Below are positions 25,090 to 40,898 of a stretch of DNA of 64,000 bases, in pieces (the stretch's first letter is position 1; the number at the start of each line of letters is the position of its first letter). The notes beneath the pieces were generated by a model. The model made no database searches. It was not told the DNA's origin and saw only the letters and a program-made list of their open reading frames with translations. The DNA is taken from contig NZ_LT828648.1 of the NCBI RefSeq assembly GCF_900169565.1, positions 3,384,501 through 3,448,500 of the forward strand. Reading direction: 5' to 3'. This stretch comes from Nitrospira japonica. GTDB taxonomy: Bacteria > Nitrospirota > Nitrospiria > Nitrospirales > Nitrospiraceae. The translations under genes and the position numbers were made by a program.

Positions 25090-25185
25090 CAGTACCTCCC
25101 ATTCCCGCACGGGAACAAGAGGTCACATGCCCGGAGGCAGACGTCATCTCCGTTACCGCGCGGAGAACCATAGCCTTGGATGCTT

Positions 25186-25372
25186 GGGTAGGTCTCCTGG
25201 CTCGTGAGTGTCGAAAGGACGGCCCTTCAACACGGCCCTCAACCTTCCTCAACGCGCATGTTGAGTGGTTAGGAACGGAGGGCGGCTCCTCACATACAGT
25301 GGCGGGTCCGCGCCGGTCTTGCACCGGACTTCCCTGTTACGCCCTTGCGGGGCACCCAAACACGATTCAAAT
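25186..25372 (-). ncRNA. Cobalamin riboswitch upstream of cbiA
   Basis: Read on the reverse strand the element has the hallmark order of a cobalamin riboswitch. It opens with GGGAAGTCCGGTGCAAGACC, then the conserved B12 box GCCACTG (25297-25303) followed by TATGTGAGG, variable arms, and the closing GAGCCAGGAGACCTACCC that re-pairs with the 5' side. It begins just downstream of a promoter and is followed, about 300 bases on, by cbiA. High adenosylcobalamin would be expected to switch off the whole late-step operon. The expression platform is not clear; no hairpin with a T-run was found before cbiA. Confidence 0.9.
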
Positions 25373-25376
25373 CGGT

Positions 25377-27115: not shown

Positions 27116-29434
27116 TCAGCCGACGCGCTCCTCGCCGAACTGCCGACGAGCCACTCGCGCGGCCTCAACCATATTGCGGAGCGCCGCCTGGACTTCCGGC
27201 CACCCTCGCGTCTTGAGCCCGCAGTCCGGGTTCACCCAAAGCCGCGTGGCAGGGAGCACCTTGCCCGCGCTGATCAGCAGATCCGCCATCTCCTCTTTCG
27301 TCGGCACTCTGGGTGAATGAATGTCATAGACGCCCGGACCGATCTCATTCGGATATTGATAGCGGACAAAGTCGCCGAGCAGTTCCATTCTCGAGCGCGA
27401 AGTTTCGATCGAGATGACGTCGGCGTCCATCTCGGCGATCGCCTCCAAGATGTCTCCGAATTCCGAGTAACACATGTGGGTGTGAACCTGCGTGTCGTCC
27501 CGCACCCCGCTCGTGGCCAACTTGAAAGCGTCGACGGCCCAGCGAAGATAGTCTTTCCATTCCCGTCGTCGAAGAGGGAGACCTTCGCGAATGGCCGGTT
27601 CATCCACCTGGATCATTTTGATACCTGCTTGTTCCAGATCGACGACTTCCTCACGAAGAGCCAGTGCGATCTGCAGGCACGTATCCTGCCGCGGTTGATC
27701 ATCTCGGACGAACGACCACTGAAGGATGGTGACGGGCCCGGTGAGCATCCCTTTGACCGGACGTTTCGTGAGAGTCTGGGCATAGGTGGACCATTCCACC
27801 GTCATCGCGCACGGTCTCGAGACATCTCCGAAAATGACTGGCGGTTTGACGCAGCGCGATCCGTAACTTTGCACCCAACCGTTCTCGGTGAACGCGAAAC
27901 CGTCGAGTTGCTCGCCGAAATACTCGACCATGTCATTGCGTTCGAATTCACCGTGCACGAGGACATCCAGTCCGATGGCTTCCTGTTTGGCGATGCAGGC
28001 ACGAGTCTCTTCCTTCAGGAATTTGTCGTAGTCCGGGACCGGCAATGTCCCAGCCCGCCAGGTGGCGCGGGCGCTGCGGACGGCGCCGGTCTGGGGAAAC
28101 GATCCTATGGTCGTAGTCGGAAACAGCGGCAATCGAAATCTCGCCCGCTGCCGTTCGGCTCGCGCCGGAAACGGCGACGTGCGCCTGAACAATGCTTCCG
28201 TGATCCCCCTCATTCGCTCGCCTACATGGCTGTTGCGAACCATCGGGGACGCCAACCTGTTTGCTCGCGCGGCTCGGCTGTCGAGAAATGGTTGTCCGGA
28301 AGGGGTCAAAGATCCCGCCGCATCGGCAAGCACGCGCACTTCGTTCAGCTTTTGAGCGGCGAAGGCCAGCCAGCTTTTCATCGTGCTGCCGAGCTTCTGT
28401 TCGCCGGCCAGATCCACAGGCACATGCAGCAATGAACAGGACGGCGCCACCATGACACGATCCGGCCCGATCATCTCAACGGCCTTCCGGATCGTCGCGT
28501 GAGCGGCATCGAGGTCCGTGCGCCAGATATTCCGACCGTCAACGAGACCCAATGACACATGCATGGTTGCCGGCAAGGCACCGAGCACGGCGTCGAGCTG
28601 GTCCGGCGCTCGAACGAGATCGACGTGGAGTGCGTCGAAACCGGATCCCGCGGCAAGCGGCAGGTTGTCCTCCAAGGCTCCAAAATAGCTTGCGAGGAGG
28701 AGGCGGGGCCGTCCCGGACATGCCGCGAGCCTGGTCAGGGCCGTCCGATAGGCCGCCTTTGCCTGATCATCGAGTTCAAGGGTCAAACAGGGTTCGTCGA
28801 TCTGAACCCACTGAATCCCCTTCTCCGCCAGGAGAGCGAGCAACTGCTCGTACATCGGGATCAGTTGGTCGAGGAACGCCAATGGGGTGAGTCCCTTCGT
28901 TTTCCCCTGTTCCATTTTAGAAAGCAGGAGAAACGTCACGGGACCAAGGAGGACGGGACGGAGGCCGCCACCTGTCGTTTCCGCTTCATCGATCTCGCCG
29001 AGCAGTTTCGAAGCGTTGAGAGCAAACGTTTGTTTGGATGCCAGTTCCGGAACGATGTAATGGTAGTTGGTATCGAACCATTTCGTCATTTCGAGCGCGG
29101 GCACGTCCATCCCCTCGCCACTCTCCTGTAATCCTCGAGCCATCGCAAAATATCTGACCAGCGGATCTTTGATCGCCCGGTAGCGTGCGGGGATGGCGCC
29201 GACCATCACGGCCGTGTCCAGCACCTGATCATAGAGAGAGAAATCTCCCACAGGAATGTGGTCGATGCCGGCCTGTTTCATGAGGGACCAATGTCGGCGC
29301 CGGAGACCGGCGGCACATTGCTGCAAATCCGCCGCGGACGTTTTCTTCGACCAGAACGATTCGAGCGCTTTCTTCAGTTCACGTTCAAAACCGATACGTG
29401 GGTACCCAAGACAGGTCGCGAGCACAGACATCAT
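27116..29434 (-). CDS. metE: Cobalamin-independent methionine synthase
   Basis: MetE transfers the methyl group of 5-methyltetrahydropteroyltriglutamate to homocysteine without B12. The 772-residue length is normal. The N-terminal domain begins LGYPRIGFERELKKALE. The C-terminal catalytic barrel has FPTTTIGSFPQT, the zinc-ligand regions (HTHMCYSEF with His and Cys, and the final Cys in NPDCGLKTRGW), and IQVDEPAIREGLPLR. The start at 29434 has AAGGAG 6-8 bases upstream; a second ATG directly follows. A cobalamin riboswitch lies about 380 bases upstream, so the enzyme is made when B12 is scarce. Confidence 0.97.
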   Translation of the reverse strand: MMSVLATCLGYPRIGFERELKKALESFWSKKTSAADLQQCAAGLRRRHWSLMKQAGIDHIPVGDFSLYDQVLDTAVMVGAIPARYRAIKDPLVRYFAMARGLQESGEGMDVPALEMTKWFDTNYHYIVPELASKQTFALNASKLLGEIDEAETTGGGLRPVLLGPVTFLLLSKMEQGKTKGLTPLAFLDQLIPMYEQLLALLAEKGIQWVQIDEPCLTLELDDQAKAAYRTALTRLAACPGRPRLLLASYFGALEDNLPLAAGSGFDALHVDLVRAPDQLDAVLGALPATMHVSLGLVDGRNIWRTDLDAAHATIRKAVEMIGPDRVMVAPSCSLLHVPVDLAGEQKLGSTMKSWLAFAAQKLNEVRVLADAAGSLTPSGQPFLDSRAARANRLASPMVRNSHVGERMRGITEALFRRTSPFPARAERQRARFRLPLFPTTTIGSFPQTGAVRSARATWRAGTLPVPDYDKFLKEETRACIAKQEAIGLDVLVHGEFERNDMVEYFGEQLDGFAFTENGWVQSYGSRCVKPPVIFGDVSRPCAMTVEWSTYAQTLTKRPVKGMLTGPVTILQWSFVRDDQPRQDTCLQIALALREEVVDLEQAGIKMIQVDEPAIREGLPLRRREWKDYLRWAVDAFKLATSGVRDDTQVHTHMCYSEFGDILEAIAEMDADVISIETSRSRMELLGDFVRYQYPNEIGPGVYDIHSPRVPTKEEMADLLISAGKVLPATRLWVNPDCGLKTRGWPEVQAALRNMVEAARVARRQFGEERVG

Positions 29435-29544: not shown

Positions 29545-29818
29545 CACGGACTCCTCCATTCGGCGCCTTACGGCGGACCTAACGGACCCGGATGCATGAC
29601 GCAGGGAGGAGAAGACGTATGGCAAGACGAGATCTGCCGCGAAATGGGCAGACGCGCAGGCGACCGTCACCCCCACGGGCGATCATCAAGGAGGCACTAT
29701 AGGGAAGTGGTCGTGAACCAAGAACGGAAGGAAGGAAACGATCCGAACCAGCTCAGACCTACGGTCCTCCCTCGAGGCATCCAGGTCAAACCGACATCGG
29801 TTGTCTCTCCAATGTCAG

Positions 29819-29998
29819 ACGCTGGCAGGTCTTCGGGCTTGCGAGCATGTCGGCTAGTTGCCGATTCCCTACTCTCCACCGCTTCCCAACTCCCGAGAGT
29901 CAGTGCGAAGGTGGAGTCGTTCTCGCTTACCGCTGCGGGGCAGCCCCGGATTCACACCGGGTTCCCTTTTGATCCCTGACATAATCAGAGAACCAGCA
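29819..29998 (-). ncRNA. Cobalamin riboswitch upstream of metE
   Basis: On the reverse strand AAAAGGGAACCCGGTG, then TGAATCCGGGGCTGCCCCGC and AGCGGTAAGCGAGA follow the cobalamin aptamer consensus, and the element closes with GCAAGCCCGAAGACCTGCCAGC. The GTAAGCGAGA variant of the B12 box is common in metE-type elements. It lies between its own promoter and metE. About 380 bases separate it from the start codon. A hairpin GACATTGG/CCGATGTC directly after the aptamer lacks a T-run, so the mode of control is not obvious. Confidence 0.9.
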
Positions 29999-30006
29999 TG
30001 GTCGGC

Positions 30007-30035
30007 AGTCTATAGTCGCGCGGAGACGATGTCAA
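30007..30035 (-). promoter_or_regulatory. Sigma-70 promoter of the metE riboswitch
   Basis: Reverse strand: TTGACA (30035-30030) and TAGACT (30012-30007), separated by 17 bases, end just upstream of the aptamer. Confidence 0.6.
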
Positions 30036-31586: not shown

Positions 31587-31971
31587 GGCGAGATGATACT
31601 CCACGGGCCGGAACTCGATATCTTTTCTCGTTTCTCATGGCAGCGGCGTTCGCGAACAACTACCAAATACCACACTCCAAATACCTTGCGCAGCTCTATT
31701 CAAGGCTACCATCTGAAACATACCGTCGAACGGATCGGTCTCATTAGGATCTGCTCCGCATCTTTGAGGACTCCTTGAAATGAGGAACTCAGCCAGCTTC
31801 CCAAACCCTTCGCTTTGACTTAACCGCTCTGCCGAGGCTAATCTACACCACTTTTCGCCTCTGTTGGCACATCAATAATAGGGACGGGATAGGTGTTCTT
31901 TAGATTGCTCCCGCCACTCTCTTGCACTGTGAGTGGACGTGAATGACATCACGCTTCTTGAGACATTCGAC
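31587..31971. other. Divergent intergenic region
   Basis: About 385 bases between the two divergent genes, less GC-rich than the surroundings. Apart from the candidate forward promoter at 31815-31844, no repeat, RNA or gene was recognised. Confidence 0.4.
31815..31844 (+). promoter_or_regulatory. Candidate sigma-70 promoter of the methyltransferase gene
   Basis: TTGACT (31815-31820) and TAATCT (31839-31844) are separated by 18 bases, about 130 bases upstream of the proposed start codon. Confidence 0.45.
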
Positions 31972-32970
31972 ATGATGAACATGTTCATATTGGTGATCGT
32001 CTCTCTTCTGGTCTTATTGCTGATCGGACTCGTGCTGTACTTGCTGTTTCCTCGCAAGTATCACTCCGCCGATTCTGTCGCCAATTCTTATGATGACTGG
32101 ACCAATGACGGCATTCTGGAGTTCTACTGGGGCGAGCATATTCACCTGGGGCACTATGGCTCTCCGCCCCACAAGAAGGATTTTCTCAAAGCCAAGTCAG
32201 ACTTTGTGCATGAAATGGCACGTTGGGGTGGGTTAGACAAGCTTCCCGCCGGCACGACGGTTTTGGACGTGGGCTGCGGCATTGGCGGAAGCAGCCGCAT
32301 TCTAGCACGGGACTATGGCTTTGCCGTGACAGGAATCACCCTCAGCCCTCAGCAAGTCAGGCGCGCTCAAGAACTGACCTCCCCGGAGGTGAACGCCCAC
32401 TTTCAGGTCGATGATGCGCTGGCCCTTTCGTTCCCTGATGCCAGTTTTGATGTGGTCTGGTCGGTCGAGGCAGGACCGCACATGCCGGACAAGGCACGGT
32501 TTGCGCGAGAGTTATTGCGCGTTCTGAAACCGGGTGGAATTCTGGTTGTTGCCGATTGGAATCAGCGGGACGACCGCCGGGTTCCACTCAACTTCTGGGA
32601 AAAGCCAGTGATGCGGCAACTGCTGGATCAGTGGTCTCATCCGGCGTTTTCCAGCATCGAACGGTTCTCAGAATTATTGGAGGAAACCGGACTGGTGGCG
32701 GGTGAAGTCACCACGGCAGATTGGACTGCCGAGACCTTACCCTCCTGGGTCGATTCGATCTGGCAGGGAGCTGTCCGCCCGGCAGGGCTCGTTCGGTTTG
32801 GCATGGTCGGGGTAATTAAATCATTGCGAGAAGTGCCTACGTTCCTGTTGATGCGTCTGGCATTTGGGACAGGGTTGTGTCGCTTTGGCATGTTTCGGGC
32901 CGTGCATGCCAATGTCCCTGCGAGTGAGATATTGTCTACACAGACGGGCAACAGGTGTGTCCGATCATAA
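31972..32970 (+). CDS. MPBQ/tocopherol-type quinol methyltransferase, cyanobacterial-like
   Basis: A membrane-anchored SAM-dependent methyltransferase of 332 residues. Residues 4-27 form a hydrophobic anchor (VIVSLLVLLLIGLVLYLLF). The class I motif is VLDVGCGIGGSSRIL. The core includes YDDWTNDGILEFYWGEHIHL, SPQQVRRAQELT, DVVWSVEAGPHMPDKARF, LLRVLKPGGILVVADWNQRD and NFWEKPVMRQLLDQWSHPAF. From memory these match the cyanobacterial 2-methyl-6-phytyl-benzoquinol methyltransferase (sll0418 type) closely over the whole length, including the C-terminal REVPTFLLMRLAFG segment. That enzyme methylates precursors of tocopherol and plastoquinone. A GTG at 31933 would add 13 residues; the ATG at 31972 fits the family length. 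Horizontal transfer is likely; the substrate here is unknown. Confidence 0.85.
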   Translation: MMNMFILVIVSLLVLLLIGLVLYLLFPRKYHSADSVANSYDDWTNDGILEFYWGEHIHLGHYGSPPHKKDFLKAKSDFVHEMARWGGLDKLPAGTTVLDVGCGIGGSSRILARDYGFAVTGITLSPQQVRRAQELTSPEVNAHFQVDDALALSFPDASFDVVWSVEAGPHMPDKARFARELLRVLKPGGILVVADWNQRDDRRVPLNFWEKPVMRQLLDQWSHPAFSSIERFSELLEETGLVAGEVTTADWTAETLPSWVDSIWQGAVRPAGLVRFGMVGVIKSLREVPTFLLMRLAFGTGLCRFGMFRAVHANVPASEILSTQTGNRCVRS

Positions 32971-36375: not shown

Positions 36376-36392
36376 CCCTTTGGCTCGAAGGG
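36376..36392 (-). promoter_or_regulatory. Hairpin overlapping the btuB ribosome binding site
   Basis: On the reverse strand CCCTT/AAGGG with a 7-base loop pairs the first bases of the Shine-Dalgarno AAAGGGAGG, between the aptamer and the btuB ATG. It could hide the ribosome binding site when cobalamin is bound; that role is inferred. Confidence 0.4.
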
Positions 36393-36407
36393 TGCTACTT
36401 CCTCCGT

Positions 36408-36575
36408 CAGTTGGGTCTCCTGACTCACGGATCGACGTTTCCCTGCGCCTTCCCATGGAACGACGTCCACAGTGGCGTTGCGGCAGGGTCACTCCCCGTT
36501 TACAGTGGCGGCACCGTGATGGATTCTCACCATCTTCCCCGGCGCTGACGGCGTATGTTCGACTGGTCCCTTCTT
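36408..36575 (-). ncRNA. Cobalamin riboswitch upstream of btuB
   Basis: Reverse strand: GGGGAAGATGGTGAGAATCC, then the B12 box GCCACTG (36503-36509) followed by TAAACGGGG, further arms, and the closing GTGAGTCAGGAGACCCAACTGAC. All conserved blocks are present in order. It lies 40 bases from the btuB start codon, and a hairpin on the ribosome binding site suggests translational control. Only about 110 bases separate it from the end of the nitrilase-like gene. No strong promoter was found, so it may also be reached by read-through from the btuF operon. Confidence 0.93.
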
Positions 36576-40650: not shown

Positions 40651-40711
40651 CTGCACCCGCTTCTTCATCCTCGTCTGCGCCCCAGCCCACGAGGGAACAG
40701 TTGGTATTCCT

Positions 40712-40861
40712 CCAAGCAGGTATTCTGGCTCATGGTTCGCCCTACTCCCCGCGCCTTCCCATCCGATGAATCGGACAGTGGTCTTGGCGGGTTTCGTCCC
40801 CACTGACAGCGGCGGGACCGCGAGGGATTCGCACCCTCTTCCCTTACCCGGAGGCTATGTG
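40712..40861 (-). ncRNA. Cobalamin riboswitch upstream of btuF
   Basis: Reverse strand: GGGAAGAGGGTGCGAATCCC, GCGGTCCCGCCGCTGTCAGT (B12 box variant GCCGCTG), variable arms with GGGAAGGCGCGGGGAGTAGG, and the closing ATGAGCCAGAATACCTGCTTGG. It starts just after a consensus promoter and is followed by an intrinsic terminator, a complete attenuator. It should repress btuF-btuC-btuD and the nitrilase-like gene when cobalamin is plentiful. Confidence 0.93.
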
Positions 40862-40868
40862 AGCGGGC

Positions 40869-40898
40869 ACTCTAGGAGACAGGGACAAAACTTGTCAA
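40869..40898 (-). promoter_or_regulatory. Sigma-70 promoter of the btuF operon
   Basis: Reverse strand: TTGACA (40898-40893) and TAGAGT (40874-40869) with an 18-base spacer, ending directly before the riboswitch. Confidence 0.65.

Follow-up and report, generated by a model that had tools for sequence, protein, structure and literature searches.

A cyanobacterial-type quinol methyltransferase in Nitrospira, probably an accessory of methyl-plastoquinone synthesis and linked in six genomes to a Nitrospira-derived FAD monooxygenase

The window, a 64,000-nucleotide stretch of Nitrospira japonica DNA taken from a single-contig genome of 4.08 Mb, carries an intact open reading frame (ORF) for a quinol C-methyltransferase of the cyanobacterial MPBQ/MSBQ type, hereafter MT (Table 1). 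A second possible start, an in-frame GTG at 31933, lies 39 nt upstream. To the left of the gene stands a divergently oriented FAD monooxygenase (FMO), and to the right a cobalamin adenosyltransferase that scores over its family cut-off. A sequence-only reading of this DNA had described the locus as bordered by broken ORFs, a description that does not hold, as both neighbours are intact; the broken gene sits elsewhere and is the genome’s native FMO, at ~2.983 Mb (G000:C1). The lower GC content that it reported is true but mild, with 55.5% in MT and 56.2% in FMO relative to 59% in the window and 50-53% in the spacers.

Table 1. Features of the MT locus and its surroundings, in window coordinates.
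Feature	Position	Strand	Basis or remark
Cobalamin riboswitch	25170-25374	-	
metE, B12-independent methionine synthase	27116..29434	-	TIGR01371, 1072 bits
Cobalamin riboswitch upstream of metE	29807..30012	-	RF00174, 118 bits
Type A FMO, UbiH/PHBH-like FAD monooxygenase, 428 aa	30318..31604	-	sole intact copy in the genome; divergent, 0.37 kb from MT
Intergenic region, divergent FMO to MT	31605..31971	.	49.9% GC
MT, cyanobacterial-type (MPBQ/MSBQ-type) quinol C-methyltransferase, 332 aa	31972..32970	+	ORF, domain match, orthology
MT N-terminal hydrophobic membrane anchor, aa 4-25	31981..32046	+	Kyte-Doolittle and AlphaFold model
MT SAM-binding motif I, VLDVGCGIGG	32260..32289	+	near-invariant in Nitrospira and cyanobacterial copies
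MT C-terminal block REVPTFLLMRLAFG (REVPT..LLMRLAFG)	32827..32868	+	mostly invariant between Nitrospira and cyanobacteria
Cobalamin riboswitch	36392-36564	-	
Cobalamin riboswitch	40698-40889	-	

Domain searches match MT to Methyltransf_11 (1.1e-23). Hydropathy reaches a Kyte-Doolittle maximum of 3.4 over residues 4-22, and the AlphaFold model, moderate as a whole (mean pLDDT 70.7), places a helix at residues 2-25 with pLDDT >80 across the first 20 residues. By domain match, hydropathy and model, both a class I SAM-dependent methyltransferase fold and an N-terminal membrane anchor are present. The nearest solved folds recovered by structure search include AtmM, MitM, RebM and TleD; as these are generic small-molecule methyltransferases and the model is moderate, structure does not identify the substrate. 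MT scores far under the cut-offs of UbiE/MenG-type models (46 bits versus 158.35 for TIGR01934), and NF052510 (MpqE) is absent from the best 25 models listed for it. Seven paralogs in the same genome were checked as native equivalents of MT and rejected; none matches a methyl-plastoquinone (mPQ) or other quinone model, and two are arsenite- and phospholipid-methyltransferase-like.

An alignment of 16 copies from Nitrospira and cyanobacteria gives a mean column identity of 83%, and the resemblance extends over the whole protein, including the membrane anchor and the C-terminal block, just as had been noticed from the sequence alone. Relative to other Nitrospira copies, dN/dS is ~0.13, a value that excludes a chance ORF or decay; MT is under purifying selection.

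That MT is a quinol methyltransferase of cyanobacterial type residing in a non-phototroph has likewise been borne out. Over ~290 aa, it shows 73-85% identity to proteins from cyanobacteria other than the picocyanobacteria, and its best non-Nitrospira relatives are all cyanobacterial among the matches listed. The sample of 146 cyanobacterial genomes yields a close ortholog (52-79% over the search’s range), and many of the genomes also have a second homolog at 34-42%. Full-length homology is to the single close ortholog, with the paralogs of 36-42% forming a separate outgroup. Five cyanobacterial genomes of 1.7-2.6 Mb retain the ortholog alone, with no second homolog at E<=1e-30, which fits an essential plastoquinone gene. 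The cyanobacterial enzyme converts 2-methyl-6-solanesyl-benzoquinol to plastoquinol by methylation, and its Synechocystis representative, Sll0418, is what we take to be the reference member of the MT family. The two types are alike in full-length sequence, with identities reaching 84%, in N-terminal anchor, SAM motif and C-terminus; they differ in that the host of MT is a chemolithoautotroph lacking photosynthesis and tocopherol cyclase, that its quinone bears one methyl group more, and that MT is patchy and mobile in Nitrospira, whereas the cyanobacterial enzyme is universal. The plant enzyme VTE3/APG1 is credited in the literature with the same reaction, but VTE3 is highly divergent, is absent from cyanobacteria and is not an ortholog (PMC5159609), so a tree that includes it would be uninformative.

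Among the matches listed, the nearest named relatives of this genome, as judged by MT, are Nitrospira metagenome genomes. The gene was found in 7 of the 60 genomes of its own family and in 34 of 395 Nitrospirota genomes, all from one family, with full-length copies at 83-91% identity. MT in Nitrospira is thus shared but patchy, and older than this strain. Two entries deserve separate mention: a contig titled Nitrosospira (L036) carries a Nitrospira-type MT beside a glutathione-peroxidase-like gene and is probably mislabelled or from a mixed bin, and one metagenome genome, ACE_NIT7, has two very similar MT contigs (L030 and L039), perhaps reflecting a strain mixture.

Maximum-likelihood trees gather the Nitrospira copies into a single clade (98/97) close to a few filamentous cyanobacteria, namely Phormidium LEGE 05292, Moorena SIO3H5, Leptolyngbyaceae, Spirulina and Arthrospira. 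Deep placement within a non-cyanobacterial clade was looked for in the trees and not found, nor does the distribution given above show simple vertical inheritance. Trees with the paralog outgroup place the Nitrospira clade nested inside cyanobacteria; since this outgroup is very distant and the AU test is compatible with monophyletic cyanobacteria (p-AU 0.546), the direction of transfer is not rested on that rooting. A DNA tree built from the orthologs, leaving out the paralogs, groups Nitrospira with the three nearest cyanobacteria at a support of only 65/89. Fourfold-degenerate distances of the window’s MT are 0.43 to Phormidium LEGE 05292, which has just one close copy, 0.45 to Moorena SIO3H5, and 0.55-0.85 to other cyanobacteria. 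Synonymous sites of the nearest cyanobacteria are unsaturated relative to the Nitrospira clade, and the spread within cyanobacteria is far deeper and saturated. Taken together, the fourfold distances, the breadth of the gene in cyanobacteria and its patchiness in Nitrospira point to movement from a cyanobacterium into Nitrospira, and gain of MT by transfer from cyanobacteria is well supported by these comparisons. Passage in the opposite direction, from Nitrospira to cyanobacteria, would be compatible with the AU result but has only a slim chance of being correct, given that the gene is widespread in cyanobacteria and that the cyanobacterial depth so greatly exceeds the distance to the Nitrospira copies. 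Viral carriage was also considered and rejected, as two pattern matches in viral contigs were recovered and neither is a relative.

The earlier proposal of a recent horizontal transfer therefore stands as to transfer, but the event is not strain-specific, the clade being common to at least 34 Nitrospira genomes; “recent” applies only on the scale of phyla, as the Nitrospira copies are already dS 0.4-0.8 apart.

The sequence-only reading had left open what MT would methylate in an organism lacking phytyl-benzoquinol, and that question can be narrowed. In N. inopinata and N. moscoviensis, the two species studied, mPQ is the only quinone (PMC12324825), so that an enzyme of the plastoquinone type would find a plausible native substrate in Nitrospira. 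The genome under study has one gene of the UbiA family, which passes the TIGR01474 cut-off for 4-hydroxybenzoate octaprenyltransferase, and a ubiE-like gene that passes the MpqE model NF052510 (406.9 bits versus a cut-off of 335). Tocopherol cyclase was found in none of seven carrier genomes, the search recovering both cyanobacterial controls at E<1e-160, and full-length HPPD, the source of homogentisate, was likewise found in none of the seven, three giving weak partial matches far under the cut-off and four giving none. A tocopherol pathway in the host was therefore rejected. Because the Synechocystis enzyme of this type methylates in plastoquinone and tocopherol synthesis alike (PMC5159609; Shintani et al. 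2002, cited there), one could suppose that the Nitrospira enzyme yields a chromanol of the tocopherol type; the missing cyclase, the HPPD results and the single UbiA prenyltransferase reduce the chance of this to next to nothing. Instead, the combination of these absences with one UbiA, MpqE and an mPQ-containing host makes mPQ precursors a plausible substrate, and MT probably acts on a polyprenyl-benzoquinol of the host’s mPQ pathway rather than in vitamin E synthesis. N. inopinata and N. moscoviensis, in which mPQ is structurally proven, are absent from the MT matches listed, which suggests that mPQ can be made without MT and that MT is accessory.

The divergent neighbour adds a second line of evidence. 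FMO has the FAD_binding_3 fold, shared with the UbiH/UbiF/COQ6 monooxygenases, and matches TIGR01988 at 2.7e-36; at 125.3 bits versus a cut-off of 224.65, this is similarity only, and FMO falls under the cut-off of every curated quinone-hydroxylase model. It represents instead a Nitrospirales lineage with a putative quinone substrate. The family is core in Nitrospirales, occurring in 91 of 99 genomes (78 of the 80 of good quality), usually as one gene each. Converting 4-hydroxybenzoate to a trimethyl-prenyl-benzoquinone should require just one ring hydroxylation, an expectation that fits about one core FMO per genome, and we put the core Nitrospirales FMO forward as the candidate mPQ ring hydroxylase.

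The FMO beside MT, however, is not the native one of this genome. It belongs to type A, a single clade (support 100) that branches out of the native FMOs found in a different genus of this family. Type A was found in six genomes, that is, in 6 of the 34 MT carriers, and is linked with MT in all six. In the genome studied here, the native FMO is a pseudogene that retains an N-terminal remnant and has suffered one frameshift as well as two internal deletions (G000:C1 ~2982830-2983460; L202:8830-9465), still at the syntenic locus adjoining nucleotidyltransferase and TPM-like genes. Of the other type A genomes, G297 has only fragments of the native gene and G003 and G333 have it intact; it was not found in the draft genomes G047 and G264, which incompleteness could partly explain. 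Loss or decay of the native FMO thus accompanies type A in 4 of 6 genomes as against 1 of the 28 other carriers (Fisher p=0.0015, a value that overstates independence because related genomes are counted as separate). From this pattern, the transferred type A FMO appears to replace the native FMO functionally. What is new here is the linkage of MT with type A FMO in six genomes, in four of which the native FMO is missing or broken.

MT also lies near mpqE in three genomes, G047, G297 and G333; the gap is 86 bp in one of the three, 0.2 kb in another and 1.9 kb in a third. MT and MpqE belong to separate protein families, and MpqE remains intact in the present genome; what they have in common is the proposed mPQ pathway and, in these three genomes, a position within 2 kb of each other. 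Most MT carriers have neither FMO nor mpqE as a neighbour. In about 14 distinct Nitrospira genomes, a glutathione-peroxidase-like gene (family match 2.1e-53) instead lies 22 bp downstream of MT on the same strand (e.g., L104:10070-10552). This pairing, together with the ROS-scavenging role for mPQ proposed in discussion (PMC12324825), raises the idea of an antioxidant lipid module, in which MT would alter or raise an antioxidant quinol pool alongside the peroxidase and any effect on the respiratory quinone would be secondary. We regard this as unlikely, the pairing being missing from the window and from the FMO- and mpqE-linked genomes; as it concerns purpose and not substrate, it may hold alongside the main explanation.

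The wider surroundings of MT in the window form a B12 island, with four of the genome’s five cobalamin riboswitches lying among cobB, metE, btuB and btuCDF-like genes. Among the carriers, metE and/or nrdAB occur near MT in six genomes, and in several a cobalamin riboswitch lies no more than 8 kb from MT, although a genome has just 2-5 such riboswitches. In G266, a cobalamin riboswitch lies ~0.3 kb upstream of the MT frame on the opposite strand (L216:8883-9053, -), and in G058, a Guanidine-I riboswitch lies ~0.8 kb upstream, also on the opposite strand (L107:9135-9256, -). Phormidium LEGE 05292 has a metE-like gene 2.3 kb upstream of its MT ortholog (L034:66-2156), ~45% identical to the window’s metE; this is probably a coincidence with the Nitrospira metE linkage. 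Such an arrangement could be read as MT riding a mobile B12-related island (metE, nrdAB and cobalamin riboswitches) as a neutral passenger with no role in quinone metabolism. That is very unlikely, as dN/dS holds at ~0.13 across synonymous distances of 0.4-0.8, MT is intact in more than 30 genomes, and it is linked to FMO and mpqE outside the B12 island in G047 and G297.

Taken as a whole, we favor the view that MT is an accessory plastoquinone-type quinol C-methyltransferase that came from a filamentous cyanobacterium, moved among Nitrospira and is accompanied in six genomes by a Nitrospira-derived FMO, and from the sequence comparisons we assign this view a probability of roughly 0.6. Under this proposal, a Nitrospira ancestor would have acquired MT from a filamentous cyanobacterium, and the gene would later have moved among Nitrospira lineages, jointly with FMO in the six known genomes. 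The N-terminal helix would anchor the protein at the membrane and the Rossmann domain would bind S-adenosylmethionine, allowing MT to methylate, at a ring carbon, one of the polyprenyl-benzoquinol intermediates in the mPQ pathway, as in cyanobacteria; we infer both the enzymatic activity and the ring position. The mPQ route would itself run from 4-hydroxybenzoate through prenylation by UbiA, decarboxylation and one ring hydroxylation, by FMO, to C-methylations by MpqE and others.

The linkage to type A FMO, the loss of the native FMO and the adjacency to mpqE suggest a mobile quinone head-group module. More tentatively, and with the odds against it, cyanobacterial MT and a transferable Nitrospira FMO might constitute a cassette in nitrifiers that jumps between genera, lands next to mpqE or in the B12-regulated metE/nrdAB island and displaces the native mPQ hydroxylase, so that the respiratory quinone pathway is remodelled laterally.

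Plastoquinone-type chemistry in non-phototrophic nitrifiers was first reported in 2025. If some Nitrospira do carry an accessory cyanobacterial MT, exchange of genes between mPQ synthesis and the plastoquinone pathway would still be possible. Quinones would then be expected to vary by strain, with carriers and non-carriers of MT differing in quinone methylation or in intermediates. The analysis also flags the core Nitrospirales FMO as the likely mPQ ring hydroxylase. Finally, the redox potential of the quinone matters for reverse electron transport in nitrifiers, and a mobile cassette, if it exists, may give rise to strains with an altered methylation pattern or redox potential.
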